Source: a bacterium (GTDB taxonomy: Bacteria; JAMCPX01). Taken from it: 64,000 bases of DNA. Below are positions 11,332 to 38,877 of this stretch, piece after piece. How positions within the stretch are numbered: the first letter of the stretch is position 1; every line of letters begins with the position of its first letter. The DNA is taken from NCBI GenBank assembly GCA_021787665.1, contig JAJYLN010000009.1, positions 1 to 64,000 on the forward strand. Reading direction: 5' to 3'. The translations under genes and the position numbers were made by a program. A model generated the notes under the pieces. It was not told the origin of the DNA. It saw only the letters and a list, made by a program, of their open reading frames with translations, and searched no databases.

Positions 11332-12537
11332 ATGTTTGGTCAATTTCTGATACAGCGAAAAGCTATAACGATGGAGCAGCTTACCGAGGCTCTCAATGCA
11401 CAGGTCGTATTCGGAGGCAGGCTGGGCACAAACCTCGTCGAATCCGGCGTCCTGTCAGAGGCCACGCTCGAAGTCCTGCTGGCGGCGTACTATAACCTTA
11501 CGGCCCTGCCCCTCGAGAAAACACAGAACATAAAGACGAGTGTCCTGAAGCTGGTGCCCCTGAATATCGTAAAGAGGCTGAGGGTGATACCCTTTGAGCA
11601 GGGTGAAAAGCAAATCCACGTCGTCTTTATGGATCCCGCCAGGCTTGATGCGATCGACGAGCTCTCTTTTGTAACGGGTATGACCGTACGGCCGTATGTA
11701 GTACCGGAGATACGGTTCCTGCTTATGCTGGAGCATTATTATGGTATAAAAAGGGACGTCAGGTATATAACCATGTCAAAGCAGGACACCGGGCGGTTCA
11801 TGTCCGACAGAATGAGCAGCAGACCTACCCCGGCAAGGACGCGCACCGAAGACAGGCGCCTGCCGCAGACGGTCGACCGCACAGGCCCTTCAGCGGTCAT
11901 TGCGCCGTTGTCCTCCGGCGAAGAACTTACCACGGAGGAAGAGTTCCAGAAGATGCTCAGAACCACATCCCCGGTAACCGAGAACGGGGCACCTGCCCTG
12001 GAACTCTCGCAGGACATGGAGATGGATCAGGAACTGCGTCTCACGCACCCGGGGAACATGGCTGAGGCCTTATCCATGCTGTCGACTTCAGGCACACGCG
12101 ACGATATAGCTGCCGTCGTGCTCGGGCATGCGCTTTCCGTATTCAAGAGGGCCGCGATGTTCATCATCTACAAGGGTATCGCAATGGGGTGGGAGGGTGT
12201 CGGGCAGGGGGTCAAGAGAACGAACATCAAGCAGCTCATGATACCCCTGGACCAGGCGTCTGCCTTCAAGTTCGTGCATGACACCGGCGCGTATTTCGTG
12301 GGCCCTGCGCAGGACAACGAGCTGAACAGAGACTTCTTTCTCCTGCTCGGCGGGAAGCCCCCCAGGACGGTCGTTATCCTGCCGATCCACTACAGGGGCA
12401 GCCTCGTACAGATGCTCTACGGAGACAACGGAGGGGGCGAGTTCGCCTCTACGGACTTCGGAGAGCTCCTGGTGCTCCTGCAAAAGGTGCCGGAGGTCCT
12501 TGGGACGCTCGTGACGAAGATGAGGAGGATGGCGTGA
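11332..12537 (+). CDS. GspE N-terminal (MshEN)-domain protein without ATPase
   Basis: A 401-residue protein. Residues 1 to about 150 resemble the T2SSE-N/MshEN domain found in front of type II secretion and type IV pilus ATPases, with the FGQFLIQRKAI and LVESGVLSE motifs; some of these domains bind c-di-GMP. After a low-complexity linker (about 160-235) comes a second soluble domain of about 165 residues with an alpha/beta pattern that may be GAF-like. There is no Walker A motif, so it is not a secretion ATPase. It overlaps the following lipase gene by four bases. It may be a regulatory or c-di-GMP-sensing protein; that is inference. Confidence 0.7.
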   Translation: MFGQFLIQRKAITMEQLTEALNAQVVFGGRLGTNLVESGVLSEATLEVLLAAYYNLTALPLEKTQNIKTSVLKLVPLNIVKRLRVIPFEQGEKQIHVVFMDPARLDAIDELSFVTGMTVRPYVVPEIRFLLMLEHYYGIKRDVRYITMSKQDTGRFMSDRMSSRPTPARTRTEDRRLPQTVDRTGPSAVIAPLSSGEELTTEEEFQKMLRTTSPVTENGAPALELSQDMEMDQELRLTHPGNMAEALSMLSTSGTRDDIAAVVLGHALSVFKRAAMFIIYKGIAMGWEGVGQGVKRTNIKQLMIPLDQASAFKFVHDTGAYFVGPAQDNELNRDFFLLLGGKPPRTVVILPIHYRGSLVQMLYGDNGGGEFASTDFGELLVLLQKVPEVLGTLVTKMRRMA

Positions 12538-13352
12538 TTATCGTCAGCATCCTTGCGTGGGTCTTCAGAGTCGTCCTGGTGTATGTCATCCTGCAGTTCG
12601 TACTGACGATCTATGACAGACTCAGCGTGCAGCACAAGCCCCTGGAGGGCGGCCTGGGCATCGTGGTGTGGGAGGTCCTGTATGAGGCAATGGTGACGTG
12701 GCTTGCGTTTCTGACCTATGGCATAGGCTTCATCGACTACGATGCGATCTTTCTCAGAAGGCGGGACAAAAGGTACCCGCCGGTTCTGCTCATCCATGGC
12801 TATATGATGAACAGGGCATACTACCTGTACCTGCATGTCAGGCTCGCTCTCGATGGGTTCAGAGTGTTCAGCGTGAACCTGTATCCGCCCCTGCGCTCCA
12901 TACCAGAGCTTGCCGAGCGCCTGGCCGACAAGATGGACTACATAGCGGACAAGACAGGGGAGAAGGAGGCCTTCCTGATAGGGCACAGCATGGGCGGTCT
13001 CGTAGCGCGGTCTTACGCTGCCTCACCAAGGGGGAGCGGCAGGGTAAAGAGGCTCATAACCATTGCGAGCCCACACAGGGGCACCCGCATCGCCGTCCTG
13101 GGCCTCGGAAAGAACGCAAGGGAGATGGTGCCCGGCAGCGCGTTCCTGCAGTCACTCGATGAGAAGCCGTTACCACGTATCTATGCGCTGTGGTCGACAC
13201 TGGACAACATGGTCGTGCCTCCGGAAAATGCGTATACCGAGGGCATGCCCAACATGTCCGTGCCGTTCCGGGGCCATATTGCAATGCTGTTTTCGAATAC
13301 CGTGTACAGACACGTTGTTTTCCTGCTCAGGGGAGAGACAGAAGACGCCTGA
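12534..13352 (+). CDS. alpha/beta hydrolase (lipase/esterase, membrane-anchored)
   Basis: A 272-residue alpha/beta hydrolase of the triacylglycerol lipase/PGAP1-like kind. An N-terminal hydrophobic stretch (about residues 1-26, then more up to 70) suggests a membrane anchor. The oxyanion motif LLIHGYMMN is near residue 84 and the nucleophile Ser sits in GHSMGG near residue 150; a distal Asp and a late His (RGHIAM) complete a plausible triad. It starts at GTG overlapping the previous stop (GTGA). As the first enzyme of the lipid locus it could release or transfer an acyl chain from a membrane lipid. The substrate is unknown. Confidence 0.85.
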   Translation: MIIVSILAWVFRVVLVYVILQFVLTIYDRLSVQHKPLEGGLGIVVWEVLYEAMVTWLAFLTYGIGFIDYDAIFLRRRDKRYPPVLLIHGYMMNRAYYLYLHVRLALDGFRVFSVNLYPPLRSIPELAERLADKMDYIADKTGEKEAFLIGHSMGGLVARSYAASPRGSGRVKRLITIASPHRGTRIAVLGLGKNAREMVPGSAFLQSLDEKPLPRIYALWSTLDNMVVPPENAYTEGMPNMSVPFRGHIAMLFSNTVYRHVVFLLRGETEDA

Positions 13353-14106
13353 GCATTTACCAAATACTGAGCCTCTGCATATCCCTCCGCGGTTTGCATT
13401 CATCATACCGGTATATAATCATGCAGCCGGGATCGGGTCTGTTATCGCGCGCGCCCTTTCGCTCGGGTTCCCGATCTTCGTCGTAGACGACGGATCGACC
13501 GATACCACGCCGGAGGTCTTAAAATTGATCCAGGGGGTAACGGTCATACGCCACCCCCAAAACCTCGGTAAGGGAGCGGCACTGCTTACCGGCTTTGCCG
13601 CAGCTGCCGTAATCGCCGACTTTGCCATCACCATAGATGCGGATGGCCAGCACGACCCCGTGGACGCTCTCCGGCTCGTCGGGCTGTTGAAATCTGGCCG
13701 GCCGGCGCTTGTAATCGGGAGACGGGAAAACATGCTTGACGATACGACGATTAAATGGACCAGCCGCTTCGGCAGGAAGTTCTCGAACTTCTGGGTTTGG
13801 ATTTCCGGCGGGCCGTTCCTATCTGACACGCAGAGCGGGTTCAGGGTATACCCGCTGCGCGAGATACTCGGTCTTAGGTCCAGGGCAAGGAGGTTCCAGT
13901 TCGAGGTGGAGATCGTGGTACTGGCGCACTGGAAAGGCATAGGTATCATCGAGGCGCCGGTGAAGGTGACGTATCAGCGCGGAAAGGACCGTGTGTCCCA
14001 TTTCCGACCTTTTGTTGATTTCTGGAGGAATGGCGGGACGTTCGGCAGGCTGATAGCCCTGAGGCTTCTGCCCATGCCCCTGAGACGGAGATTGATCCAG
14101 AAATGA
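13315..14106 (+). CDS. family 2 glycosyltransferase (dolichyl-phosphate mannose synthase-like)
   Basis: A GT2 enzyme that moves a sugar from a nucleotide donor, often to a lipid carrier. The FIIPVYNHA strand, the DDGST motif, the KGAALLTGF motif and the metal-binding DADGQHDP motif are all present. A late hydrophobic and basic tail suggests peripheral membrane binding. The start is unclear: the conserved domain has no ATG in front of it outside the lipase gene. TTG at 13315, overlapping the lipase end, is used here, and CTG at 13375 is the alternative. It overlaps the next gene by four bases. In aryl-polyene-type loci a GT2 domain is paired with an acyltransferase, and a separate acyltransferase follows two genes on. 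Confidence 0.82.
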   Translation: MFSCSGERQKTPEHLPNTEPLHIPPRFAFIIPVYNHAAGIGSVIARALSLGFPIFVVDDGSTDTTPEVLKLIQGVTVIRHPQNLGKGAALLTGFAAAAVIADFAITIDADGQHDPVDALRLVGLLKSGRPALVIGRRENMLDDTTIKWTSRFGRKFSNFWVWISGGPFLSDTQSGFRVYPLREILGLRSRARRFQFEVEIVVLAHWKGIGIIEAPVKVTYQRGKDRVSHFRPFVDFWRNGGTFGRLIALRLLPMPLRRRLIQK

Positions 14107-17100
14107 ACGCGAATACGGCTATTATCAGGTGGAAGGTCGTTGTCCTTGTCATACTCATTTTTGCAGGGATATATGTGGCCGGGGAGCGCAACCTTCACGT
14201 GGAAACCGATATAACCAAGGGCCTGCCGAAACAGGACCATGTGATTGCCGATGCCAGATATATTATAACCCATTACCCGGTGTTCGACCGGGTCTTCATC
14301 GATATTGGCCTGACCAAGGGAGATTCAGACACCGGCATCCTCGTGAAGGCCGCTGCATATATGCAGCGGGGGCTCCAGATAAGCGGACTGTTCAAGGAAG
14401 TGGGATTGGGGTCATCTGCAAACGCCCTGCCGCTTCTGCTATCGAGGGTAGTGTCCAATCTCCCTTCGCTCTTCTCCCGGGAGGAGCTGGAAAGGAAGGT
14501 CCTTCCTCTGTTGAGCGATGGCTCCGTCAGTTCACGCCTGCAGCATGACATGAATACCCTGCAGGGGCTCGAGGGGCTGGGGCAAGCCGGCTTGATAGCG
14601 CATGACCCGCTGGGACTGCGGAACCTTGTTCTTGCACGCATGGGTGCACTCATGCCGGTGCACGATGCCACGATCTCTGACGGTTTCATTATGAGCAAGG
14701 ACCGCAGGCACATTCTTATCATCGCGGAGCCTGCACAGCAAGCGACAGACAACGTATTCGCGCGTAAGATAAACACCCTTATAAACAGTTTAATTGCAGC
14801 TATGGACCAACAAGTTGCAGGGTCCGCAGGGCAAATCACCGTCACGCCGATCGGATCATACAGGGCAGCCATCGACAATGAGAAAGTCGCGAAGAGGGAC
14901 ACCATGCGCGTGGTACTCCTCTCTACGCTGGGGATAGCACTGCTCCTGCTCATCAGCTTTCCGAGATGGTACATCGGCCTGATGGCGCTCATACCTGCCG
15001 TTGCCGGTACTGCGGCTGCACTGCTCGTGATGTCCCTGCTCAGGCACAGCATGTCCCTGCTTGCGATCGGCTTCGGAGGGGCCATTATCTCTATGAATGT
15101 CGACTACGGTATCGCGTACCTCATGTTTCTTGACCAGGCTGTGGCGACCTCCGGCACGTATGCATCGAGACAGTCGTTCTGGGTGGGGCTCGGGGCGTCG
15201 TTCACCACCGTGGGATCCTTCCTCGCATTGAGCTTCAGTGGTTTCCCGATCCTTGCGGAGATTGGCTGGTTTACCGCGATAGGCACGCTCCTTTCCTTTG
15301 CATTCGTGCATACGATCTTTCCGCTGGTATTCCACAGGATGTCGCCGGCGAGGCGGGAGGGCATTATGCCGATGGCAAAGATGACGAGCCGCCTCGCGTC
15401 CTCGAGCGGGTGGAGCGCACTCATCGTAACGGTCGTCTTCGGGCTGGTCATGGCGTTCTTTGCCAGACCGGGAGTCAGGGCCGATATACAGGCGATGAAC
15501 AACGAGAGCGCATCCACCCATAAAGCTGAGAACACGGTTATGCAGACATGGGGCAATATACTCTCAGGAGCAACGTACGTCCTTATGCAGGGGCATTCCG
15601 CCAATGCCCTGCAGGACCGCGCGGACGATCTGCATACGTTCATCAGGGAGCAGAAGTCTGTGGGTATGGTGCACGCCGGGTTCTCGCTTTCGTCCCTGTT
15701 TCCCGGGGAGGCGCTGGCACAAAAGCATGAGGCTGCATGGAAGGCATTCTGGACGACCGACAGGATCAAGGCCCTGCGCGAAACAATCTCCCGCGCAGCG
15801 TCTCTTACCGGCTTTTCCCGTAATGCCTTTGATCCGTTCTTTACGATACTGGGCGCACCAAAGCCTCCGGATACGATAATCCCCCCGGAGCTTTACCAGC
15901 TACTCGGCGTATCCCGGAGCAGGGACAACAACGAGTGGATGATGATCAGTGCAATTCAGCCCGGACCGGCCTATAACCCGAAGGTGTTCTACACAGACCT
16001 CTCTGCAGAAGGCATAGGCAAGATGCTCGATGCCGACTGGTTTACGAAGAGGCTGTCGGACCTGCTTTTCAATATGTTTGTCCGCATGGGTATACTATGC
16101 GGGGTAGGGCTCGTTGTGGTCCTGATATTCTATTTCATGGACATGGTCCTGGTAGCCCTGGCCCTGGTGCCGGTAGCATTTGCCCTGGTCTGCGCCTTCG
16201 CGACCTATCATCTGCTCCATATCCCTCTGGACATCCCGAGTCTGCTGCTGGTCGTTATCGTGTTCGGCATGGGCAGCGACTATCCTATCTACTTCATAGG
16301 CGCATACCAGCGTTATTTTGACGAGCATGATCCTTCCATGCGTCCCCTGCGTGCTGCGGTGTTCCTCAATGCGGGGTCCACGATCACAGGCCTCGGGGTG
16401 CTGGCATTCGCAGGACATACCATGCTCAGGAGTGCGGGGCTCAGCATGGTGCTCGGTCTGTGCTATGCCCTTATCGGTACGGTTGCCATCCTTCCGCCCC
16501 TATTGCGGCTGATCTACACGCCCCGGGTGGGGCGTATCGGGCAGGGCGTTACAGCGGGTTCCCGTGAACACAGGACCGGCACGTTGTCCGCGTATAGGTA
16601 TATGGAAACCTATGTCAGGATGTTTGCAAGGTTCAAAATCAAGCTTGACCCGATGTTCGAAAGGCTTGCCGGCTTCGTGCGGCCACACGACAGAGTCATG
16701 GACATCGGGTGCGGGTACGGCGTGCCGGGCGCATGGCTGATCCATCTGTATCCAGGTGTATCCTTGTTCGGTATCGAACCGAATGCAGACCGCGTGAGGG
16801 TGGCACAGAGGGCATGGGGGCACCGTGGGACTGCTGTGCAGGGCAGGGCGCCGGACGTTCCGGTATCCGAAGGCAGCTACGATACGGTCCTTATGCTCGA
16901 TATGATCCATTATATTCCGGACACAGAGCTTATGCATACCCTCGCAGCCGTAGCCTCGTGTCTGCGCCCCGGCGGGTTGCTCGTGATCCGGGCAACTGTC
17001 CCTTCATCGAAGTACGTGCCATGGGAGCGCTGGCTTGAGCAGGTCAAGCTCAGAGCACGAGGACAGCGGTATTACTTCCGGTCCCAAGACAAGGTCACCG

Positions 17101-17204
17101 AGATTGTTACAACGGCGGGCTTTGAGCCGGTATATACCGGGGAAAGTGCGAAGGGAAGAGAAGAGACATGGTTCGTGTTTCAGAAAGGGGAGGAGCGGGT
17201 TTGA
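14103..17204 (+). CDS. MMPL-family lipid exporter fused to SAM-dependent methyltransferase
   Basis: A 1033-residue fusion. Residues 1 to about 800 form an RND/MMPL-type exporter: one N-terminal membrane helix (about 8-26), a periplasmic domain, a helix bundle (about 275-460), a second periplasmic domain and a second bundle (about 655-800). It resembles the predicted exporters (COG4258) of aryl-polyene and related lipid loci. Residues about 840-1030 form a class I methyltransferase with the SAM motif MDIGCGYGVPGAW and a DMIHYIP post-II motif. A carrier that transports and a cytosolic enzyme that methylates the cargo, or its neighbours, are thus made as one chain. No stop or frameshift divides them. 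Confidence 0.87.
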   Translation: MNANTAIIRWKVVVLVILIFAGIYVAGERNLHVETDITKGLPKQDHVIADARYIITHYPVFDRVFIDIGLTKGDSDTGILVKAAAYMQRGLQISGLFKEVGLGSSANALPLLLSRVVSNLPSLFSREELERKVLPLLSDGSVSSRLQHDMNTLQGLEGLGQAGLIAHDPLGLRNLVLARMGALMPVHDATISDGFIMSKDRRHILIIAEPAQQATDNVFARKINTLINSLIAAMDQQVAGSAGQITVTPIGSYRAAIDNEKVAKRDTMRVVLLSTLGIALLLLISFPRWYIGLMALIPAVAGTAAALLVMSLLRHSMSLLAIGFGGAIISMNVDYGIAYLMFLDQAVATSGTYASRQSFWVGLGASFTTVGSFLALSFSGFPILAEIGWFTAIGTLLSFAFVHTIFPLVFHRMSPARREGIMPMAKMTSRLASSSGWSALIVTVVFGLVMAFFARPGVRADIQAMNNESASTHKAENTVMQTWGNILSGATYVLMQGHSANALQDRADDLHTFIREQKSVGMVHAGFSLSSLFPGEALAQKHEAAWKAFWTTDRIKALRETISRAASLTGFSRNAFDPFFTILGAPKPPDTIIPPELYQLLGVSRSRDNNEWMMISAIQPGPAYNPKVFYTDLSAEGIGKMLDADWFTKRLSDLLFNMFVRMGILCGVGLVVVLIFYFMDMVLVALALVPVAFALVCAFATYHLLHIPLDIPSLLLVVIVFGMGSDYPIYFIGAYQRYFDEHDPSMRPLRAAVFLNAGSTITGLGVLAFAGHTMLRSAGLSMVLGLCYALIGTVAILPPLLRLIYTPRVGRIGQGVTAGSREHRTGTLSAYRYMETYVRMFARFKIKLDPMFERLAGFVRPHDRVMDIGCGYGVPGAWLIHLYPGVSLFGIEPNADRVRVAQRAWGHRGTAVQGRAPDVPVSEGSYDTVLMLDMIHYIPDTELMHTLAAVASCLRPGGLLVIRATVPSSKYVPWERWLEQVKLRARGQRYYFRSQDKVTEIVTTAGFEPVYTGESAKGREETWFVFQKGEERV

Positions 17205-17207
17205 GGG

Positions 17208-18128
17208 ATGAACAGGCTTATCCAGTTCATCTTTTATATGAAGGGGCTGTTCTATAAGCTCAACTCTTTTTTAGCCCGCATGGTCGGGCTGTGGGTCGTT
17301 TCTTTGTCCGCATGGCTCATTACCAGTATATACTTTCTATGCCTGCCGTGGAGGACCGCCTCCAGCGTAAGGTTTTACCGGGCTCTCTATCCTGAAAGGG
17401 GTGTCCTTTCCCCTTTGTGGCATGCGTGGAAGCAATACCACCATTTTTCTACCGTATTCGTTGACAGGCTCAGGTTCGGGAAAGCAGGAGGGCTCACGTG
17501 GGTGGGTCAGGGGCTGGAACATCTCACCGCAGCAGCACAGAAAGGTGAATACGGCATCCTGCTCACCACGCATTTCGGGAACTGGGAGGCGGCGGCGCGC
17601 GGGCTTCAATCCCTGAACTTCAAAATCCTTTTATTCATGGGCTCACAGCAGTACGAGCAGATCGAGGCGCAGATCAAGCAGGACCTTGCAAACCACGGGA
17701 TCTCGATCGTGGCCGTGTCCAAAGACTCGGACGCGCAGTTCGAGGGATTGGAGGGCCTGCATTTTCTGAAGAACAAGGGATTTGTGGGGATGGCGGGAGA
17801 TCTCCTGTGGAGCAAGGGGCAGAAGTCCATCAAGGTAAAGTTCCTCGGTCATGACGTCTTCCTGCCGCAGGCCCCGTATGTCTTTGCACTGGTCACGGGC
17901 GCGCCCCTGTTCGTGTTTTTCGTCATTCGGACAGGCAAGGGTAGCTATCGGATCGTTGCCCACCCGCCGATCTATGTAAAAGCAGGGTCCAGGGACCAGA
18001 GGGACACGGCCATGCAGAGGGCAGCGCTGCATTATGTGGCACTGCTGGAACAGACCGTACGGCAGTATCCGGACCACTGGTACCACTTTACACCTCTGTG
18101 GATTGATGCTACGAAAGGAAGCGAATGA
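17208..18128 (+). CDS. LpxL/HtrB-like acyltransferase
   Basis: A 306-residue lysophospholipid/lipid A-type acyltransferase, membrane-bound at the cytoplasmic face. An N-terminal hydrophobic helix lies at about residues 24-45. The catalytic HX4E motif is seen in TTHFGNWEAA (about residue 124) and the GDLLWSKGQ motif corresponds to the second conserved block. It would transfer an acyl chain from ACP or CoA to a glycolipid. Together with the GT2 two genes upstream it mirrors the glycosyl/acyl-transferase pair of aryl-polyene-like loci. It overlaps the following radical SAM gene by four bases. Confidence 0.85.
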   Translation: MNRLIQFIFYMKGLFYKLNSFLARMVGLWVVSLSAWLITSIYFLCLPWRTASSVRFYRALYPERGVLSPLWHAWKQYHHFSTVFVDRLRFGKAGGLTWVGQGLEHLTAAAQKGEYGILLTTHFGNWEAAARGLQSLNFKILLFMGSQQYEQIEAQIKQDLANHGISIVAVSKDSDAQFEGLEGLHFLKNKGFVGMAGDLLWSKGQKSIKVKFLGHDVFLPQAPYVFALVTGAPLFVFFVIRTGKGSYRIVAHPPIYVKAGSRDQRDTAMQRAALHYVALLEQTVRQYPDHWYHFTPLWIDATKGSE

Positions 18129-19480
18129 AGGTTTTGCTTCTTTCCACGAACAGACTCACGGTCCCGTATGCGGTGTATCCGATAGGGCTTGATTATGTCA
18201 TAGGCGCACTCGCTCCTTTCCACCAGACGCAGGTCATCGACCTTTGCTGCGAGGAGTATGATCCCACGAAGCTCGAGGCACGGATAAAGAAATTCGCCCC
18301 GGATATCGTCGGGCTCTCCCTGAGGAACGTGGACACCTCGGATTCTGTCAATGCGCAGAGCTTCATCGGACAGTATAAAGATATCATGGCAGTGGTGAAG
18401 CTGGCGACACGCGCCCCGGTCGTCATCGGGGGGAGCGCGTTCAGCATATTCCCGCACCAGTTCATGCAGGAGCTGGGAGCAGATTACGGGATAGTCGGGG
18501 ACGGGGAGCGGCTGGTACAGCTTCTGGATGTCCTTCAGAAAGGAGGGGACGCCTCTGCGCTGCACGGAGTGATTGTACAAGGTCCGGATAAAGATGTTAG
18601 CGTCGCATTCTGGGAGGGCACTATCACGAGGGCATTCGACAAGGACCGTCCGAGTGTAGGGTTTTACCTGAAGAACGGCGGCATACTCAATCTCCAGACC
18701 AAGCGCGGCTGTCCGTTCAAATGCATCTATTGCACTTACCCGCTGATCGATGGTCACGGGGTCCGGTGCTTCGACCCTGCGTTGATCGGAAAGATGGCGC
18801 GGGAGCTGCAGGATGCGGGTGCAAAGTTCATCTATATAACGGACTCTTCGTTCAATGCGGACATGGCGCACAGTATCGCGGTGGCAGAGGCATTCGCCCG
18901 TAATCACGTGAGCATTCCCTGGGGAGGGTTCTTTACGCCCAAACACCTGCCCAAGGACTATTTTCGCAGGATGGCAGATTGCGGCCTGACCCATGTAGAG
19001 TTCGGAACGGATTCCCTGTGCGATACGGTACTTGCTTCTTACCATAAACCGTTCAATCTCAAACAGGTTTTCGAGAGCCATCAGATGGCCCTGGATGCCG
19101 GTCTGTACATCGCCCATTACCTGATCATAGGAGGCCCCGGAGAAACCGTACAGACCCTCAAAGAAACACTCGACAACGCGGACAAGCTCCAGCGGTCCGT
19201 GCTGTTCTTCTTTTTCAGGATGCGGGTCTACCCGGGCACAGAGCTGCATGCCATTGCCCTGAAGGAAAGCATGGCCTACGCTGACGATGTCTTCACGCGC
19301 CAAGTGTTTTACCAGACTGATCCGATGTGGAACGATGTTCTAGTGCGCACGGTACATGAGCGGTCCCGCGGGCGGTCGAACTGGGTCACGGGCTCCGGCG
19401 GTGAAGAGATGGAAAAGGTCGTTGCCCGGATGTACAGCCGCGGTCGTACAGGGCCGTTATGGGAAAAGCTGATTCAGTAG
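18125..19480 (+). CDS. B12-binding-domain radical SAM protein
   Basis: A 451-residue enzyme with an N-terminal cobalamin-binding-like Rossmann domain (residues 1 to about 150; DIVGLSLRNVD and VVIGGSAFS strands) and a radical SAM barrel. The cluster motif CPFKCIYC gives Cys near residues 197, 201 and 204. This architecture often performs C-methylation or skeletal rearrangement of lipids and natural products, but the reaction cannot be predicted here. It is tightly coupled with the neighbouring genes (overlaps of 4 and 22 bases), so it likely acts on the lipid made by the locus. Confidence 0.9.
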   Translation: MKVLLLSTNRLTVPYAVYPIGLDYVIGALAPFHQTQVIDLCCEEYDPTKLEARIKKFAPDIVGLSLRNVDTSDSVNAQSFIGQYKDIMAVVKLATRAPVVIGGSAFSIFPHQFMQELGADYGIVGDGERLVQLLDVLQKGGDASALHGVIVQGPDKDVSVAFWEGTITRAFDKDRPSVGFYLKNGGILNLQTKRGCPFKCIYCTYPLIDGHGVRCFDPALIGKMARELQDAGAKFIYITDSSFNADMAHSIAVAEAFARNHVSIPWGGFFTPKHLPKDYFRRMADCGLTHVEFGTDSLCDTVLASYHKPFNLKQVFESHQMALDAGLYIAHYLIIGGPGETVQTLKETLDNADKLQRSVLFFFFRMRVYPGTELHAIALKESMAYADDVFTRQVFYQTDPMWNDVLVRTVHERSRGRSNWVTGSGGEEMEKVVARMYSRGRTGPLWEKLIQ

Positions 19481-20958
19481 CCCCGCAGCGGGTGACCATC
19501 TTCCCGCTCTCGCCCGCTGTCCTTGCCGGTATCGGCGCACTCCAGATAGCCATTGCCCTTGCCTTTCTGTCTCCGCACCTGATCGCCGCGCCTCTGGTTG
19601 TTTTTCTCGTGCTCTGCCTTCTCGCCCCGTTCTTTCCGCAGGCAAGGTTCTTCATGCCCGTCATCACCAGCGGCACCAAGGGGAAGAATGCGGTTGCGCT
19701 TACCTTCGACGACGGGCCTTCACCGGAAACGACACCGCTTTTGCTGGGGCTTCTGAAAAAATACAACGTCCCTGCAACACATTTTGTGATCGGTAATAAG
19801 ATGCAGGAGCATCCTGATCTGGTCAGGATGATGCTTGCGCAGGGACATACCCTGGCAAATCACACCATGAACCACGATGTCTTTATCATGCTGAAGCCAG
19901 CAAAAAAGCTCGGGCAAGAGATCGAGCAATGCCAGAACGTGATGGCAGCATTCGGCGTCCAGCCGCTCATGTTCAGACCGCCGGTCGGCATCGTGAGCCC
20001 GAGACTCTGGAGAGAGCTCCTGATCAGGGGGATGCACTGCGTTATTTTCAGCCTCAGGGCCCGCGATATGGGAAACAGGAAAGTCGCGGGCATTGCGCGC
20101 CGGATCCTTGGCAAGGTCAGGGACGGCGACATCATCATACTCCACGATCGCGCACTCAAGACAAAGGACTTGGTTGGTCCGTGGCTCAAAGAAGTGGAAC
20201 AGGTGATAACCGGTATTCAGGCGAAGGGACTCCGGATTATACCGCTTGCAGATCTAATCGAACGGCCGATCATGGCCGGCGTGCAGGACAGCTCTGTGCA
20301 CGGGCCGATTGCGGCTTTTTATGACGGTATAGCCGGATCGTATGATCAGGAGCAGGACGCCGGGGTTATAGCGAGACTGCGCAGGACAGAGCGTGCGGCA
20401 GTGATCAAGCGGCTTTCGTCGTTCGTCCGGCAGCCGGACAGGGTGCTCGAGATCGGGGCCGGCACCGGCAGATACACGCTGGAGCTTGCGCGTCTCGCAA
20501 AAGAGGTCGTTGCCGTGGACGTGTCGGACAGAATGCTCCAGATACTGCGAGGCAAGGCACAGCGGGCGCACCTGAACAATATCAGCTTTGTACGCGGAGA
20601 TATACAGGATATCCCCGTTGATCACCGCTTCAGCCACATCTGTGCCTTTTCGTCATTGGAGTATGTTCCGGACCTTGCAGCGCTTTTAAAGAACCTGTCC
20701 GGCCAGCTTGAGCCGGGCGGCCTCTTCTATTGTACAACAGCACACCGGACGTTCTTCAGGTTTTGGGCACAGATCGGCAATGCCATGCGCCAGGGTGTTT
20801 GGCTCCATGCAAGGGGCAGACGGCAGATAAGGACGGCCCTGATGCAGGCCGGGCTAACGCCGCTGGTCATAGAATCACAGGGGACAATGTCCGTCTTGAA
20901 TGCCGGGGTGCTGCTCGAGATCCTCGCGAAAAAGGAAGGGGCAGGATACAGCACCTGA
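19459..20958 (+). CDS. polysaccharide deacetylase (NodB) fused to methyltransferase
   Basis: A 499-residue fusion. Two hydrophobic segments (about residues 14-55) are followed by a NodB-type carbohydrate esterase 4 domain with TFDDGPSPE (about 82), the metal-binding HTMNH motif, FRPPVG and the late IIILHD motif, all intact. From about residue 275 comes a class I methyltransferase with LEIGAGTGRYT near 331. The first domain would remove acetyl groups from an amino sugar, perhaps the sugar added by the GT2 enzyme, and the second would methylate. It overlaps the upstream radical SAM gene by 22 bases. This is the second methyltransferase fusion in the locus. Confidence 0.88.
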   Translation: MGKADSVAPQRVTIFPLSPAVLAGIGALQIAIALAFLSPHLIAAPLVVFLVLCLLAPFFPQARFFMPVITSGTKGKNAVALTFDDGPSPETTPLLLGLLKKYNVPATHFVIGNKMQEHPDLVRMMLAQGHTLANHTMNHDVFIMLKPAKKLGQEIEQCQNVMAAFGVQPLMFRPPVGIVSPRLWRELLIRGMHCVIFSLRARDMGNRKVAGIARRILGKVRDGDIIILHDRALKTKDLVGPWLKEVEQVITGIQAKGLRIIPLADLIERPIMAGVQDSSVHGPIAAFYDGIAGSYDQEQDAGVIARLRRTERAAVIKRLSSFVRQPDRVLEIGAGTGRYTLELARLAKEVVAVDVSDRMLQILRGKAQRAHLNNISFVRGDIQDIPVDHRFSHICAFSSLEYVPDLAALLKNLSGQLEPGGLFYCTTAHRTFFRFWAQIGNAMRQGVWLHARGRRQIRTALMQAGLTPLVIESQGTMSVLNAGVLLEILAKKEGAGYST

Positions 20959-21004: not shown

Positions 21005-22672
21005 ATGCCGATAACAGCAGTTAGACGTGATATCGACCCAAAGCGCCGCTCTTCCACGGTTTTGATGAACGGCAACGGGAAACGGCCGCATCTTGCAAGA
21101 TCCGTGGGCCGCCGGTTCAGATCGGCGGTATTTCCGAACAAAGTAAAACGGTATGGCCAGGGAAGCAGATTCCTAAGGGTTTATCTGGTAGCTCCCCGCC
21201 ATCCGGAAAATGTATGGTCTCTGCAAGGAACAGTTGAGGTTATCGGTGCAAAGACCCTGATGCCGAATGCTGCGCTAGCCACGCTCATGGCATTGACCCC
21301 GCCCGGGGTGTCCGTAGAATATTCTTTGGGCGACGAAAACATTGCACCGATCGACTGGGACATGCCATGCGATCTTGTCGCCGTTACCGGCAGCACCATC
21401 CATGTACGCCGGATAGCCGAGATATGTCATGCGTTCCGGAGCAGAGGAATACCGATCGCTCTGGGAGGATCGTATGCAAGTATCTATCGGGACCAGTGCG
21501 CCCCTCTTGCGGACCACCTCTTTATCGGTGAGGCGGAACGCACGTGGCCGAAATTCTTACAACAGTGGCGCGATGGCAATGCGCAACCCTGCTATGTGCA
21601 GGAGTCGCACATCGATCTCAAGGACAGTCCGCCCCCTGACTGGTCGTTGATTCATGCAAAGGATTATGTGAATCTTACGGTGCAAACGAGCCGCGGATGC
21701 CCGAACCGCTGTGATTTCTGTGATGTTATCCAATACATGGGAAGACTCTACAGGACAAAATCGGTAGAACAGATACTGGCGGAAGTGAGGAACGCCCACC
21801 GTATCGGCGCCAATTCGGTGTTTTTCTCCGATGACAACTTTTTCGGCAACCCGGCATTTACCAGGGAGCTTTTACGCGCGCTCATCCGATGGAACACTAT
21901 GCAGCTGCACCCGCTCTCCTTTGCCACGCAGATCACCCTCCAGGTGGCCGATGATGAAGACCTGCTGAAGATGTTTGCGGACGCGAGGTTTTCGGTGCTG
22001 TTCCTCGGCGTAGAGACGATACGGAGGGAAAGCCTTGAAGAAATCCACAAGACACAAAACATCAGGCATGACATGGGGGAACGGATAAAAAGGATATCCC
22101 GGCACGGTATCGTGCCCTTTTTGGGTCTTATCGTAGGCTTCGATCATGACGACATTTCGGTGTTCGATGAGCTGTACCGGTTCGTCGAGGATACCTCCTC
22201 TCCGATCGCCTGTGTCAGTCTTTTGAATGCACCTCTGAAGACACAGCTTTTCGATCGTCTTACTAAGGAAGGACGGCTGATCGGCGACGATTTTTCCGGG
22301 GAATGGCAGTTGTATACCAATATCGTTCCCAAGCAGATGAGCAGGGAGGAGCTTCAACAGCGGTTCTGGAGCTTGTTCAAGAAGCTCTATGAGCCGAAGC
22401 GCTTTGACCAAAGGCTCAGGAATTGGCTTGCACAGGTGGAATACACGAGCCCGCTGTATGTCAACAAGCGTGCAGACATGAAACAGTTTGCCACGGCACT
22501 GACCATGGTGAAACATTTTGTGTTTGCATCCGACTCTTCTGTACGAAGGATGTTTTACCGTAACATTGTTCGCATGTGGAAGACGTATCCGCGCCTCATG
22601 CGGCGCACGATAACACTCCTTGCTCAGTTCCGGCACTTTTATGACTTTGTGCATGCCCGGGGAGGGGATTGA
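21005..22672 (+). CDS. B12-binding-domain radical SAM protein (DUF4070-like)
   Basis: A 555-residue protein. After a basic, probably unstructured N-terminus (the first 55 residues; an ATG 20 codons in is a possible later start) comes a cobalamin-binding-type domain (about 56-200). The radical SAM motif CPNRCDFC follows with Cys 232, 236 and 239, and a C-terminal region resembles DUF4070. Relatives include hopanoid C3 methylase-type proteins, but this one cannot be assigned to that reaction. It stands 46 bases after the deacetylase fusion and belongs to the same strand and locus. Confidence 0.87.
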   Translation: MPITAVRRDIDPKRRSSTVLMNGNGKRPHLARSVGRRFRSAVFPNKVKRYGQGSRFLRVYLVAPRHPENVWSLQGTVEVIGAKTLMPNAALATLMALTPPGVSVEYSLGDENIAPIDWDMPCDLVAVTGSTIHVRRIAEICHAFRSRGIPIALGGSYASIYRDQCAPLADHLFIGEAERTWPKFLQQWRDGNAQPCYVQESHIDLKDSPPPDWSLIHAKDYVNLTVQTSRGCPNRCDFCDVIQYMGRLYRTKSVEQILAEVRNAHRIGANSVFFSDDNFFGNPAFTRELLRALIRWNTMQLHPLSFATQITLQVADDEDLLKMFADARFSVLFLGVETIRRESLEEIHKTQNIRHDMGERIKRISRHGIVPFLGLIVGFDHDDISVFDELYRFVEDTSSPIACVSLLNAPLKTQLFDRLTKEGRLIGDDFSGEWQLYTNIVPKQMSREELQQRFWSLFKKLYEPKRFDQRLRNWLAQVEYTSPLYVNKRADMKQFATALTMVKHFVFASDSSVRRMFYRNIVRMWKTYPRLMRRTITLLAQFRHFYDFVHARGGD

Positions 22673-22890: not shown

Positions 22891-22908
22891 GTGTACATAT
22901 CTCTCATT

Positions 22909-23637
22909 ATGGAAGACAAAAAATGGGCATTGGTTACGGGTGGGAGCAGGGGGATCGGCCGCGCGACGTGCGCCGAGATGGCGCGTGCCGGCTATAACGT
23001 CGTTATCAACTACAAGAGCAACGAGCCGGCAGCACAGGAGACGCTCCGCCTCGTGAAAGAAGCAGGGGGTGACGGAGAGATCGTCCAGTTCGACGTCGTG
23101 GACGCCGCTGCGACTCAGGCTGTTCTTGCGCGCTTGTTAAAAGAACACAAAATTCACGCCCTGGTGAACAATGCGGGTATCACCGCTGACGGACTTTTTG
23201 CAATGATGCCCCGGCAGAACTGGCAGTCCGTAATCCAGACTTCCCTGGATGGCTTCTACAATGTGACCAAACCGATCCTCATGAGTATGCTGCGCGTGAA
23301 GAAAGGGTGTTCGATTGTGACCATAGCCTCGGTGTCAGGTATCATCGGTAACCGGGGACAGGCCAACTATTCCGCGGCCAAGGCCGGTTTGATCGGCGCA
23401 AGCAAGGCGCTCGCCAAAGAGATCGCAAGGCTCGGCATCAGGGTGAACGTGGTCGCGCCCGGGCTCATCGAGACCGAGATGATCAAGGACGCGCCCAGGG
23501 ACATTATTCTTCAGCTTATTCCCATGGAGCGGATCGGCATGCCGGAGGAAGTCGCCAGGGTCGTTCGGTTCCTGTGCTCTGATGATGCATCGTATATCAC
23601 GGGGCAGGTCATCTCGGTAAACGGCGGCATGGTATAG
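22909..23637 (+). CDS. 3-oxoacyl-ACP reductase (FabG-like SDR)
   Basis: A 242-residue short-chain dehydrogenase. The NAD(P) motif TGGSRGIG is at residues 10-17, NNAG is at 87-90, and the catalytic triad is formed by Ser in TIASVSG, Tyr 154 and Lys 158. The sequence is close to FabG, the beta-ketoacyl-ACP reductase. The start [10 protein letters not shown] lacks a good ribosome-binding site, and a GTG six codons upstream is possible. In this locus, next to a LolA-like and a DUF3261-like gene and with FabF on the opposite strand, it is best read as the ketoreductase of a dedicated acyl or polyene chain-building system. Confidence 0.9.
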
Positions 23638-23643
23638 CAGCCT

Positions 23644-24276
23644 ATGCGGTCAGGCACTACATACAGAGGTCTGCTTGTTTTCGCCGGCATATTGATGATG
23701 CCTGTCCTTGCCAGAGAGGGATGGACCCAAACATGGGGGAGTATCCGCCAGTCTATGGCCAACGTCCACTCCGTTTCCGCGCACTTTACCCAGAAAAAGA
23801 ACCTCAGGATCCTTGCCAGGCCCCTGGTCAGCAGGGGCCTGTTTTATTACCGTGCCCCCGGGGACCTGCGATGGGAGTACCTGTCCCCGGTAAGAGATAT
23901 CCTCCTCATCCATGGGGAAAGAGTCGCCAAGTATACCTGGAGCAACGGCAAGTTTGCAGAAGATGAGGGCCCGCAGATTGAAGCAACGCGCGTCGTCATG
24001 GGACAGATATCTTCATGGCTCAACGGCGATTTCCAGGACAACAGGGCGTTTGTCCCGAAGCTCGAGCCGGGAACCCCGGCGAAGATCGAACTGGTCCCGG
24101 TAAAAGACTATCTGAAGACCTATATCGAGCGTGTGATCCTCACCCTGTCCAAAACCGAAGGCGTCATCTCTTCGATCGAGATACTTGAGCCGCAGGGCTC
24201 ATCTACCCTCATAGAATTTTCGCACATAGCCCTGAATGCAGCCATATCCGGCACCACGTTTGAAAGCATAAAATGA
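23644..24276 (+). CDS. LolA-like outer-membrane lipoprotein carrier protein
   Basis: A 210-residue periplasmic protein with a signal peptide (hydrophobic core about residues 10-22). It has the LolA fold pattern: an early HFTQKK strand, a GLFYYRAPGDLRWEY strand, and a later YTWSNG strand. True LolA carries lipoproteins from LolCDE to LolB. The specialised LolA-like proteins of aryl-polyene-type loci are thought to carry lipid instead. Its place after fabG and directly before the DUF3261-like gene (four-base overlap) favours the second role. The MMPL exporter upstream would be its inner-membrane partner. Confidence 0.85.
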   Translation: MRSGTTYRGLLVFAGILMMPVLAREGWTQTWGSIRQSMANVHSVSAHFTQKKNLRILARPLVSRGLFYYRAPGDLRWEYLSPVRDILLIHGERVAKYTWSNGKFAEDEGPQIEATRVVMGQISSWLNGDFQDNRAFVPKLEPGTPAKIELVPVKDYLKTYIERVILTLSKTEGVISSIEILEPQGSSTLIEFSHIALNAAISGTTFESIK

Positions 24277-24941
24277 AGCGTTTGCTGCCCGTTGTAATTT
24301 GTTTTGCTGCCCTCTCATGTACGACGCTCACCCCGGTCCGGCATACCGTCATAAGAGACCCTTACCTGCTGGGCAAATGCTTCCCTGCGTATCCCCTGCG
24401 TGCCTTCCGAGCCGTCCATGTCATCGATGCAACGATCCGGGGGGAAACCAGCCCCTTTATCGGTATCACGATAGCGGATGTACCCGAGAACCGCATCCGT
24501 GCCACGCTGCTCAGCGTTGAAGGGCTCGTTCTTCTGGACGCGGTAAGCGATAAAGGTACCATAGATGTCTACCGTTCGATGCAGACATTTTTATCCGCGG
24601 TTTTTGCGCAAGGGCTGTTCAGCGACATACGGTTCATGCTGTTTCCGGAGCGGGGCCATCTCATCGGTGCAACGATCAGCGCTGATGGCTCCATGACGTG
24701 TCGCTGGACGAACGGCGGTCATGAATATGAAAAGGACTCCGATGCCGCAGGAAAGATGACCATCCGAGAGTACGGTCCGGGCCATAAACACCTGCGCACG
24801 CTGACCATGTCTCCCCCGATCATCGACGGCTTGTATAAGCGTATGCAGCTTCGATCCTTCGTAGGAATCGGGTATTCCCTGTCTCTCAAATTGCTCGAGG
24901 GCGAGCCGCTCGAGCATACGGACGGGTTATTTTCCCGGTGA
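24273..24941 (+). CDS. DUF3261-like outer-membrane lipoprotein
   Basis: A 222-residue protein with a lipoprotein signal (lipobox ALSC, lipidated Cys near residue 16) and a beta-rich body. DUF3261 lipoproteins accompany LolA-like proteins in aryl-polyene-type clusters and may act as the outer-membrane acceptor, like a specialised LolB. The match rests on length, lipobox and gene context more than on a motif I can verify. It overlaps the LolA-like gene by four bases. It meets the minus-strand gene downstream tail to tail, with a 15-base overlap. Confidence 0.65.
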   Translation: MKRLLPVVICFAALSCTTLTPVRHTVIRDPYLLGKCFPAYPLRAFRAVHVIDATIRGETSPFIGITIADVPENRIRATLLSVEGLVLLDAVSDKGTIDVYRSMQTFLSAVFAQGLFSDIRFMLFPERGHLIGATISADGSMTCRWTNGGHEYEKDSDAAGKMTIREYGPGHKHLRTLTMSPPIIDGLYKRMQLRSFVGIGYSLSLKLLEGEPLEHTDGLFSR

Positions 24942-25304
24942 ACCCGATCCGGAGAACCTTTCTATAAATATTCGTACACCATAGCGGGCCAGCGCACGCA
25001 TGTATTTGATATTGTCCTTACCGATAAGTAACATCGAGGTACCCCATACCAGAAATGAGAAGCCGTATAGCGCGGGCCCGCCGATGATGAAGATGAGAGG
25101 GTTTTTCAGGTAGGTCGCTGCGATACCACTGGCAATCACGCCGGGCCAGCCGATCACATAGCTCAGCCCCATCAGTACCAATCCCAGAACAAGCACAAAA
25201 GACGGCGGTTCCTTGAAAATGCCCAGATCCGCCTTTGATTCGACCGCTTCACGCCCGTATGCAGTATGCGCTGCCCATGCTGCTATTGTCCGTAGAATCG
25301 TCAT
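24927..25304 (-). CDS. small membrane protein (125 aa), unknown
   Basis: I recognise no family. The 125-residue chain has two or three membrane segments (about residues 35-57 and 66-95) and a positively charged C-terminal tail. It lies 18 bases downstream of fabF on the same strand and probably shares its transcript. Its 3-prime end overlaps the end of the DUF3261-like gene by 15 bases. Context links it to the lipid locus, but nothing in the sequence gives a role. Confidence 0.65.
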   Translation of the reverse strand: MTILRTIAAWAAHTAYGREAVESKADLGIFKEPPSFVLVLGLVLMGLSYVIGWPGVIASGIAATYLKNPLIFIIGGPALYGFSFLVWGTSMLLIGKDNIKYMRALARYGVRIFIERFSGSGSPGK

Positions 25305-25322
25305 AGAAACCCTACGGCATTG

Positions 25323-26555
25323 CTACACCTTCCGGAAGATGAGCGAGGTGTTGATTCCTCCGAACGCAAAGTTATTGTTCATGCCCGTGGTGAACGTATA
25401 GTCACGCGCGTTACCCATGACGTGGTTCAAGGGAGGCAACAGCGGGTCCGGGTTCTCGAGGTTCTTGGACGCCGCGATAAAGCGCTCGTTGATCATGAGT
25501 ATGGTCATGATGGACTCGAGCGCCCCGCATGCACCCAGCGTATGGCCGGTAAAGCCCTTGAGCGCGCTCACCGGCACGGATGTCCCGAACACCCGGTTCG
25601 TTGCGGTCGCTTCCGCAAGGTCCCCCGCAGCTGTTGCGGTAGCGTGCGCATTGACGTGGCCGATGTCTTCAACGGATAGGCCCGCGTCTTTCAGGGCGAT
25701 TCCCATGGCGCCCGCCATGCCGTCAGCACTGGGATTGGTCAGGTGGGAGCCGTCGCAGTTCGTGCCATAGCCAACGACTTCGCTATAGATATGCGCGTCC
25801 CGTGCCTTCGCACGCTCATACTCTTCCAGTACGAGACAGGCTGACCCTTCGCCGACGACAAGACCGTCCCGATCGGCATCAAACGGTCTCGGCGTTGCAT
25901 CGGGCCGGTCGTTGTATTTTGTCGATGTGGCCCGCATGATATCGAAGATACCCGCGTCCATAAAGTGCATCTCTTCGGCGCCGCCCGCGAGCATGATCTC
26001 GGCGCGGCCTTCCTTTATCGCCTCATACCCGAATCCAACGCCCTGAGACCCGGACGTACAGGCCGTACACGATGCTATGACCGGGCCCTGAGTGTGAAAC
26101 ATCATGGCAAGGTTCGCTGCACAGGTGTGGCTCATAAACTGGAGATAGATGGACGATTGCAGCCCTTTGAGGCTCTGGTTCTTAAAGACGTCGACGAGGA
26201 AATCCTGCATGGACTGGGAGCTACCTGTGGTCGAGCCGAAGGCTACCCCGCACGCTGGAGACCCGATCACGTCTTCACTGATCCCGGAGTCCGCGATTGC
26301 CTCCATGGTTGCCAGGGCGGCAAGAATGGTGACCCTGCCCATGCTCCGCCTGTAGTTGCGCGGTATTACCTTTTCATCAACCGTGCCGCATACTCCCGCG
26401 ACCCTGGTGCGGAGATGATCTATGTCGTTCCATGCCGGCATTGCACGGACGCCACCTCGTCCGCTCTGCAGCGCTTCTTTCATTGCCTTAAGGGAGTTTC
26501 CTATGGGAGACCGGAACCCGATGCCCGTAACTACGACTCTTCGCCTTTCACTCAT
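25323..26555 (-). CDS. beta-ketoacyl-ACP synthase II (FabF-like)
   Basis: A 410-residue thiolase-fold condensing enzyme that extends an acyl chain with malonyl-ACP. The active-site Cys 166 lies in TACTSGSQ, His 304 in NAHATATAAGD, Lys 333 and His 338 in ALKGFTGHTLGACGA, so the Cys-His-His triad is intact. The usual HGTST block reads HATAT, a small departure from housekeeping FabF that fits a specialised synthase. No chain-length-factor partner or acyl carrier protein gene is seen nearby. A promoter-like pair and an AGAGGGA site precede it. Confidence 0.93.
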   Translation of the reverse strand: MSERRRVVVTGIGFRSPIGNSLKAMKEALQSGRGGVRAMPAWNDIDHLRTRVAGVCGTVDEKVIPRNYRRSMGRVTILAALATMEAIADSGISEDVIGSPACGVAFGSTTGSSQSMQDFLVDVFKNQSLKGLQSSIYLQFMSHTCAANLAMMFHTQGPVIASCTACTSGSQGVGFGYEAIKEGRAEIMLAGGAEEMHFMDAGIFDIMRATSTKYNDRPDATPRPFDADRDGLVVGEGSACLVLEEYERAKARDAHIYSEVVGYGTNCDGSHLTNPSADGMAGAMGIALKDAGLSVEDIGHVNAHATATAAGDLAEATATNRVFGTSVPVSALKGFTGHTLGACGALESIMTILMINERFIAASKNLENPDPLLPPLNHVMGNARDYTFTTGMNNNFAFGGINTSLIFRKV

Positions 26556-26583
26556 ATTTTTCCCTCTGGATAATTATTTTTGA

Positions 26584-26612
26584 TTTCTAAACGATAAATC
26601 CAAAAAGGTCAA
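26584..26612 (-). promoter_or_regulatory. candidate sigma-70 promoter for fabF-like gene
   Basis: On the minus strand TTGACC and TAGAAA are separated by exactly 17 bases, and the pair lies about 30 bases before the fabF-like start. It sits in the 68-base gap after the PlsC-type gene, so the condensing enzyme may have its own transcript. Confidence 0.5.
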
Positions 26613-26623
26613 TAAGAATGTTT

Positions 26624-27526
26624 TCACTTCGTTTCAAACTCTCCCTTTATGTTCAGTGTAGAACGGAACCGGCCTTCCATCTCTGCAGCGGTCCTGCGTT
26701 CCTCTTTTTCTATGGGCGGAGGCAGGGGGTCCAGAAACTCCAACTGGACGATCGATATATCGTAGGGTGGGTAAAACCAGCGGTCTTCATGTGGCAGGAA
26801 CGGCGGCGTGTTCCTGATGACCACGGGCTGGACAGGAACGTGGGCGGTCCGTGCGAGCTTGAAAGCTCCCGCCCTGAAGCGGTTTAGCCCATGTTTTGGA
26901 GACCGCGTGCCTTCCGGGAAAAGCATGAATTTATAGCCATCCTTCAATTGCTCCAGGGCCTTGTTCGTAGTGTCAAGCACCATAGAGGCGTCCGATCTGC
27001 CTGTTGCGAAGACCCATCCCGCCAGCCTGAACAGATAGCCCATCCCGAGGCCGGTCCTCAGAGAATGCTTTGCAATGAGCGACATTTTCGGGACATCGCG
27101 GATCATGATGAGAATATCGAAAAGGCCGGGGTGGTTGGCTATCAATACACACGGTCCGTCCATAAGCTTCCCTTTATGGGGCAGGGCCTTTAACAGCCTT
27201 CCTTTTTCCATGAGCCAGAGCCACAGCACGACGTACCCCCGGTAGAATCTCTGGTTCCACTGCCGGTCATGTCCGGCAAGCCTGTCGCGCAGGAGCAGGT
27301 ACGGCGTGAGCATATGCCCGAAGAGTATCCCGCCGCCGAACACGAGAAACATGAGCAGCATGTACTGGCCTTTCAGAACCCGAACGATCGCGCGTCGCAA
27401 AGGTGTTCTATCGGGAGTGATTGTTGTGGTCATCCGTTCACCGTCTTCTCGCTCGTCTTTACCATTGTTTTCAGTATGATCCGGATCATCAAAGGTCTTT
27501 AATAACGGATCATAGAATACGGTCAT
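26624..27526 (-). CDS. PlsC-type lysophospholipid acyltransferase
   Basis: A 300-residue 1-acyl-glycerol-3-phosphate acyltransferase-like enzyme. A membrane segment lies at about residues 52-74, the HX4D motif is in IANHPGLFD (about 132-140), and the second block is FPEGTRSPKHG (about 203-213). The start is uncertain: the first 31 residues are polar and an inner ATG (MTTTITPD) at 27433 is likely. It leads the minus-strand block with fabF and the small membrane protein. It is the second acyltransferase of the locus, of a different family from the LpxL-like one. Confidence 0.85.
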   Translation of the reverse strand: MTVFYDPLLKTFDDPDHTENNGKDEREDGERMTTTITPDRTPLRRAIVRVLKGQYMLLMFLVFGGGILFGHMLTPYLLLRDRLAGHDRQWNQRFYRGYVVLWLWLMEKGRLLKALPHKGKLMDGPCVLIANHPGLFDILIMIRDVPKMSLIAKHSLRTGLGMGYLFRLAGWVFATGRSDASMVLDTTNKALEQLKDGYKFMLFPEGTRSPKHGLNRFRAGAFKLARTAHVPVQPVVIRNTPPFLPHEDRWFYPPYDISIVQLEFLDPLPPPIEKEERRTAAEMEGRFRSTLNIKGEFETK

Positions 27527-38866: not shown

Positions 38867-38877
38867 TCTGAAGGAAT

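Follow-up and report, generated by a model that had tools for sequence, protein, structure and literature searches.

Gene content of the locus

The stretch of DNA analysed here, referred to as the window, comprises bases 1-64,000 of contig C22 (JAJYLN010000009.1, which ends at position 76,926) of a bacterial genome (GCA_021787665.1, designated G000), and we describe a compact locus at 13.3-27.5 kb whose genes resemble those of aryl-polyene (ape) clusters. An initial annotation had named lipase, glycosyltransferase, MMPL exporter, acyltransferase, reductase, LolA-like, DUF3261-like and synthase genes in this region, together with radical S-adenosylmethionine (SAM) enzymes and two methyltransferase fusions, and searches of Pfam and NCBIfam recovered all of the named families at 12534-27526. 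For comparison with the known system, profiles built from the families of the cluster were scored against the 18 Ape proteins of Escherichia coli CFT073 (c1186-c1204), whose aryl-polyene genes have been described (PMC8253772), with other E. coli open reading frames (ORFs) as decoys.

The forward-strand set begins with a GT2 glycosyltransferase (13342..14106, +; PF00535; start codon uncertain) corresponding to the N-terminal part of ApeJ, which its family profile matches with E=7e-56. It is followed by a fusion of an ApeM-like MMPL/RND lipid exporter with a C-terminal class-I SAM methyltransferase (14103..17204, +; PF03176 and PF13489; ApeM E=2e-21), an arrangement that is kept both across the phylum of this genome and in Desulfobacterota. 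The next gene (17208..18128, +; PF03279) codes for an LpxL-type acyltransferase with an intact HX4E motif that corresponds to the C-terminal part of ApeJ, and its family scores 148 bits to ApeJ as against 12 bits to E. coli LpxL. Two radical SAM genes then flank a further fusion. The first, rSAM1 (18125..19480, +), carries the CxxxCxxC motif and a B12-binding domain and belongs to TIGR04072, a 'lipid biosynthesis / ladderane' family, with 382 bits against a cut-off of 360; the second, rSAM2 (21005..22672, +; PF04055), carries DUF4070 (PF13282) and has copies at 60-65% identity in three clusters of other bacteria (L100, L102 and L124). Both had been called B12-type, a description that fits rSAM1; in rSAM2 no B12-binding domain is detected by Pfam. 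The gene between them (19459..20958, +; PF01522 and PF13649) joins a NodB-like polysaccharide deacetylase, a half that had gone unnamed, to a SAM methyltransferase and contains TFDDG and HTMNH motifs. Among the structures listed as matches to the two methyltransferase domains of the window the anammox protein AmxMT1 (8HD2) is absent, in a family that is too broad to be informative.

The remaining forward-strand genes encode an ApeQ-like 3-ketoacyl-acyl carrier protein (ACP) reductase, FabG (22891..23637, +; 282 bits to ApeQ and 217 to E. coli FabG), an ApeL-like LolA-type periplasmic carrier (23644..24276, +; PF03548; 40 bits to ApeL and 23 to LolA) and a DUF3261-like lipoprotein with its lipobox cysteine at position 16 (24273..24941, +). 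Three genes converge on this set: one for a conserved 125-residue protein (24927..25304, -), one for a FabF-like, ApeR-like beta-ketoacyl-ACP synthase (KS; 25323..26555, -) and one for an ApeD-like PlsC-type acyltransferase (26624..27526, -; PF01553). The synthase retains its Cys-His-His triad in alignment and scores 469.9 bits to PRK09116, whose cut-off is 470; its family, profiled without the N-terminal halves of a KS fusion described below, prefers ApeR (484 bits) to FabF (332 bits). The PlsC-type family matches ApeD with E=2e-33, or 7e-18 when a stricter set of sequences is used. The 125-residue protein has long hydrophobic helices, is entirely helical in an AlphaFold2 model (pLDDT 89.4) and has no match in Pfam or NCBIfam. 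Throughout the forward-strand set the genes overlap or abut, the only gaps being 46 bp before rSAM2 and 218 bp before FabG, and catalytic motifs are intact in the synthase, FabG, both acyltransferases, the deacetylase and the radical SAM enzymes.

The lipoprotein scores 20.4 bits to PF11659, just below the cut-off of 22.3, and is related to ApeN weakly by sequence (hhalign P 8e-4). Its AlphaFold2 model (pLDDT 88.9) finds LolB of Vibrio cholerae as the top Foldseek match (E=6.5e-6), and VIA-align superimposes the model on several LolA and LolB structures with Z of 12-15 over about 150-187 residues; these include LolB of Porphyromonas gingivalis (9tpm; Z 14.2, root-mean-square deviation 3.6, 185 residues aligned) and of V. 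cholerae (8cm1; Z 12.3, 3.5, 157 residues). On the predicted LolA/LolB fold, and not by sequence profile, we identify this protein as the modelled counterpart of ApeN.

Upstream of the glycosyltransferase lie genes for a MshEN-domain protein of the cyclic di-GMP-binding type (11332..12537, +; PF05157) and an alpha/beta-hydrolase of the lipase/esterase kind with a GHSMG motif (12534..13352, +; PF00561). Both were weighed as possible parts of the pathway and left out of it, because no copies were found in the clusters of other bacteria; the hydrolase adjoins the cluster only in G000 and one relative, G002, and the two are probably flanking genes.

Two further blocks in the same genome

A second block occupies 61.4-76.8 kb of the same contig, 34-49 kb beyond the locus and mostly past the end of the window, and reaches contig position 76,774. 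It contains three radical SAM genes, two FabF-like synthases (KS1 and KS2) that retain the active-site triad, a 4HBT thioesterase and a fusion of a polyketide synthase (PKS)-type dehydratase with a phosphopantetheinyl transferase (PPTase). Its first gene is the radical SAM ORF rSAM61 (61395..62639, -; CxxxCxxC), relatives of which are present in single-locus clusters of other bacteria, and a second radical SAM ORF, rSAM63 (63760..65052, +), is cut by the window end at 64000. Beyond it lie an ApeH-like AMP-ligase (C22:71356-72732), ApeP-like and ApeI-like hotdog dehydratases (C22:72729-73250 and C22:73187-73558), an ACP (C22:73571-73822) and a phytoene-desaturase-like oxidase (C22:75263-76774). 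The ApeP-like family lies above its Pfam cut-off, and the best structural match of the gene itself is a FabA/FabZ-type dehydratase (6qsr_B). The ligase and dehydratase profiles match ApeH, ApeI and ApeP with E-values of 6e-61, 6e-12 and 3e-16, respectively.

A third block lies on contig C20 at 68.3-76.3 kb. It comprises two ACPs (C20:68298-68901), a fusion of a KS with a chain-length factor (CLF) that corresponds to ApeO plus ApeC (C20:68898-71102; Ketoacyl-synt and Ketoacyl-synt_2), a second phytoene-desaturase-like oxidase (C20:71065-72567), an ammonia-lyase for aromatic amino acids and a thioesterase, together with a fusion of Dak2 and DegV domains like those of the fatty-acid kinase FakA-FakB (L152, 14557-16284), which thus lies inside a lipid cluster and is kept in the clusters of other bacteria. 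The fusion family scores 281 bits to ApeO and 250 to FabF and matches ApeC (E=4e-9) over its second half, where the catalytic cysteine appears by eye to be missing. The ammonia-lyase matches solved structures of phenylalanine ammonia-lyase, of tyrosine ammonia-lyase/aminomutase and of histidine ammonia-lyase at similar scores, and no NCBIfam model places it above its cut-off.

These blocks bear directly on the proposal, made from the window, that the locus is without ACP, ligase or dehydratase. That statement holds inside the window only; the contig continues past 64 kb with the 'missing' genes, and contig C20 carries more of them, so that the apparent absence is an edge effect. Nor is the suggested use of a housekeeping ACP borne out, as each of the three dedicated ACPs fits ApeF or ApeE at least as well as it fits AcpP: the family of the C22 ACP scores 74-97 bits to ApeF and 51-55 to AcpP, one C20 family scores 69 to ApeE and 28 to AcpP, and the other C20 family ties at 33 and 33.

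Across the three blocks, profile counterparts were found for 14 of the 18 Ape proteins (ApeC, D, E, F, H, I, J, K, L, M, O, P, Q and R), and in seven families the Ape protein outscores the housekeeping paralogue (FabG, FabF, AcpP, LpxL or LolA). The attachment and export set is covered by ApeD, ApeJ, ApeK, ApeL and ApeM counterparts in profile searches and by the ApeN counterpart in predicted fold.

Linkage of the blocks in other genomes

With rSAM1 as query we scanned 84,980 species, each represented by one genome, and analysed the best 80 loci, which are mostly from Desulfobacterota with a few from Myxococcales and Spirochaetes metagenome-assembled genomes (MAGs). In 58 of these 80 loci, and in 37 of the 42 that exceed 15 kb, no more than 10 kb separates the rSAM1 relative from genes of both the window block and the second block; in a genome of several Mb, chance would be expected to bring unrelated single genes together in this way at about one locus in 100 or fewer. 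Relatives of rSAM63, mostly 64-69% identical, occur in 51 of the 80, a deacetylase lies near rSAM1 in about half, and 32 contain a member of the 125-residue protein family. The MMPL-methyltransferase fusion, too, is kept across these bacteria. One contig (JAQTNV010000009.1; G063, C9) carries all blocks as 30 genes in 37 kb, and another (JAUXGL010000033.1; G064, C67) carries 28 genes in 32 kb; the presence of all blocks on these single contigs indicates that the blocks belong to one pathway. In Desulfosarcina widdelii most of the three blocks lie within approximately 27 kb, without a close copy of the lyase.

We note two peculiarities of individual clusters. On the second of these contigs (L163; Deltaproteobacteria MAG CSMAG_2928) the ammonia-lyase (2707-4260) is broken by one in-frame TAG, and so is an MMPL-type match in that genome; these may reflect sequence error, pseudogenes or recoding of TAG. 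In a Desulfobacterales MAG (L137, 9255-13367) a single ORF of 1370 residues unites the MMPL exporter, a methyltransferase and an LpxL-type acyltransferase.

Nine genomes, all of one family, represent the small phylum to which G000 belongs; their assemblies are fragmented, which leaves the spacing of the blocks in doubt everywhere but on contig C22. Genes of the window type are present, in pieces, in eight of the nine, and the pieces meet at different junctions. In G003, G006, G007 and G008 the glycosyltransferase and MMPL genes are directly preceded by the desaturase-like gene of the second block, and in G003 and G007 the rSAM61 counterpart adjoins the KS/CLF fusion and its ACPs. In G005 the deacetylase-methyltransferase fusion is followed directly by the FabG, LolA, DUF3261 and KS genes, whereas in G008 the block of FakAB-type fusion, lyase, KS/CLF and two ACPs directly adjoins the KS-PlsC pair. 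The MshEN and lipase pair of G002 (L062) is followed directly by ACP, ApeI-like, ApeP-like and ligase genes. Scattering in relatives had been named as an observation that would speak against a single pathway; the genes are indeed in pieces within this phylum, yet they are contiguous in other bacteria.

Other members of TIGR04072 occur apart from these clusters. A second subfamily, scoring about 600 bits, is found in G003 (L034, contig C2, 6286-12013) and G004 (L036, contig C72, 11193-16920), in small clusters that pair a protein of condensation- or acyltransferase-like type with an FAD oxidoreductase and an AMP-ligase; these loci were considered as the 'missing' half of the pathway and rejected because their gene set is different. 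A radical SAM protein of G041 scores 617 bits to the same model, and hydrazine synthase was not found in four genomes of the G041 phylum. G000 itself has, outside the cluster, a group of five rSAM1-related radical SAM ORFs within 17 kb, three of them adjacent (L157; G000:C15:177-195 kb).

Interpretation of the locus

The gene families, their intact motifs and their linkage across genomes are observed, and we read them as follows: with a probability of about 0.78, the locus in the window supplies attachment and export, together with one synthase and one reductase, in a dispersed aryl-polyene-type envelope-lipid pathway of which it makes up about half. The genes of this pathway lie at no fewer than three places in the genome (C22:13.3-27.5 kb, C22:61.4-76.8 kb and C20:68.3-76.3 kb), and together, approximately 30 in number, they probably serve to make a modified polyene fatty acid, to place it on a lipid and to move it to the outer membrane.

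The substrates, the order of the steps and the product are proposed here from the roles of the families. The ammonia-lyase would remove ammonia from an aromatic amino acid and so give an aryl-acrylic acid, and the ApeH-like ligase would load this, or another starter, onto a dedicated ACP. Elongation with malonyl units would fall to the KS/CLF and KS enzymes, reduction to FabG, and dehydration to the ApeI-like, ApeP-like and PKS-type dehydratases; no enoyl reductase is recognised in the three blocks, and the chain would consequently stay a conjugated polyene. Modification of the head or the chain, probably without oxygen, may be the task of the five radical SAM enzymes, helped by the two methyltransferases and the pair of phytoene-desaturase-like oxidases. 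A thioesterase would then free the acid, which the FakA-FakB-type kinase may re-activate, and the glycosyltransferase, deacetylase, LpxL-like and PlsC-like enzymes would join it to a glycolipid or glycerolipid. Finally, the MMPL-methyltransferase fusion is predicted to export the lipid, which would then reach the outer membrane by way of the LolA-like carrier and the LolB-like lipoprotein.

Several observations weigh against this interpretation. KS1 and KS2 are nearer to FabF (276 and 306 bits) than to ApeR (166 and 186) or ApeO, and are an extra synthase pair that ape lacks. The profiles yield no significant counterpart of the lipoprotein ApeA, the methyltransferase ApeB or ApeG, the best methyltransferase match to ApeB having E=0.055. 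In three of the nine phylum members (G001, G002 and G003) the ammonia-lyase was not found, and six of ten genomes of other bacteria have no close copy of it. G002, moreover, keeps the synthesis block and has MMPL, LolA and the ApeR-like KS only as distant matches, which shows that the blocks are separable. Since the lyase was not found in several genomes an aryl starter is not universal; it is strongly suggested for this genome but is not a rule across carriers.

An alternative is that the radical SAM and desaturase-like enzymes convert a polyene to a hydrocarbon or a cyclised chain, so that the product is a lipid either polyunsaturated or cyclised in a ladderane-like manner, much as was proposed in 2009 for Kuenenia and Desulfotalea (PMC2649909). 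The gene content parallels the Kuenenia list, including a phenylacetyl-CoA-ligase-like gene and KS pairs with a non-canonical partner (PMC2649909, PMC4790861), and rSAM1 belongs to a family named for ladderane-type loci; it barely exceeds the cut-off of that family, however, and the subfamily near 600 bits resides in different loci. Desulfotalea psychrophila produces C31:8 and C31:9 polyunsaturated hydrocarbons, as this alternative would have it, but no ladderanes were found there (PMC2649909). The ammonia-lyase and the complete LolA, MMPL and GT2 export set better fit an aryl-polyene lipid of the envelope, and we regard a ladderane-like product as unlikely.

Less probable again is the pathway first envisaged from the window, a reduced glycolipid route that borrows the housekeeping ACP, has no dedicated ligase or dehydratase and is independent of the other blocks. 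It accords with the lack of these genes inside the window, with the separation of the blocks in the phylum and with the synthesis block of G002; the dedicated ACPs, ligase and dehydratases of this genome, the adjacency of the same families in one locus elsewhere and the junctions between blocks across the phylum together make it very unlikely. A flexirubin-like pathway, in which an aryl polyene is esterified to a dialkylresorcinol or similar lipid, is highly improbable, as the scores that recall it (FabG to FlxB, 314 bits against a cut-off of 340; LolA to the flexirubin LolA2, 91 against 125; the lyase to FlxA, 314 against 700) all fall below the NCBIfam cut-offs and the lyase scores higher to the BagA/FevW and HutH models.

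Neighbouring genes

A YceI-domain gene (62969..63712, +; PF04264) stands beside the second block and is a neighbour conserved within the phylum. Elsewhere in the window, a methylmalonyl-CoA-mutase-like gene lies beside a biotin-carrier-like gene at 33192-35446, and a tRNA gene lies on the minus strand at 35411-35482. The genes at 35579-42710 probably form an efflux system: by eye they encode a pair of ABC-2-type permeases with an ATP-binding protein, as well as a TetR-type regulator and an outer-membrane protein resembling TolC.

Comparison with known systems

What is new here is the near-complete complement of aryl-polyene genes in these radical SAM clusters, and its division into pieces in the present genome. 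What looked like a polyene-lipid locus without a synthetic core thereby becomes a whole pathway, about 30 genes long and conserved among anaerobes, in which the envelope-lipid machinery of aryl polyenes is combined with five radical SAM enzymes. It also illustrates that a pathway can persist while its cluster breaks up, and that core genes missing from a limited window need not be missing from the genome. D. widdelii, as a carrier of most of the genes, is culturable.

The locus had been thought possibly undescribed, which is true in part. Clusters for type II fatty acid synthesis in Kuenenia were reported in 2009 to contain radical SAM, phytoene-desaturase-like, ligase and membrane-protein genes, with a strikingly syntenic cluster in Desulfotalea and similar ones in Geobacter and Pelobacter (PMC2649909), and antiSMASH calls 'ladderane' clusters of unknown function in Desulfobacterota, Myxococcota and other phyla (PMC9902471). 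The combination of aryl-polyene genes, radical SAM enzymes and an ammonia-lyase, on the other hand, was found in no paper of the open-access library searched.

Judged from published annotation only, the Kuenenia and Desulfotalea clusters share with the present genes B12-type and other radical SAM enzymes, a phytoene-desaturase-like oxidase, an aromatic-acid-type ligase and a glycosyltransferase, as well as a membrane protein, methyltransferases, FabZ, FabG, ACPs, KS pairs and a deacetylase-like gene (PMC2649909, PMC4790861). The ammonia-lyase and LolA/LolB-like genes are present here but not in the published Kuenenia list. As to FabF paralogues with lost active-site residues, a feature of ladderane-type clusters, the picture is mixed: the triad is intact in KS1, KS2 and the ApeR-like KS, and the CLF half of the C20 fusion matches ApeC and by eye has no catalytic cysteine. 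Expression of the Kuenenia genes in a heterologous host yielded no detectable ladderanes (PMC4790861). For the many non-anammox 'ladderane' clusters of unknown product these parallels offer a hypothesis, namely that they are of the aryl-polyene type and that the anammox pathway is built on the same chassis, the 'non-canonical FabF' being a CLF, the phenylacetyl-CoA-ligase-like protein being of the ApeH type and ladderanes being an ACP-bound polyene modified by radical SAM enzymes; we advance this as a speculation, and a doubtful one.

With flexirubin clusters the genes have in common an ammonia-lyase, a short-chain dehydrogenase/reductase and a LolA2-like carrier, all at sub-cut-off scores. 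The closest comparison is with ape itself. Where E. coli has a single ApeJ, the corresponding parts are here split over the GT2 and LpxL-type genes; conversely, ApeO and ApeC are fused, and the MMPL exporter is fused to an unrelated methyltransferase. Additional to the E. coli set are the five radical SAM enzymes, the ammonia-lyase, the FakAB-type fusion, the PKS-type dehydratase-PPTase fusion, the deacetylase and the desaturase-like genes. Finally, the ape genes form one contiguous cluster, whereas their counterparts occupy three places in this genome and are contiguous in other bacteria.

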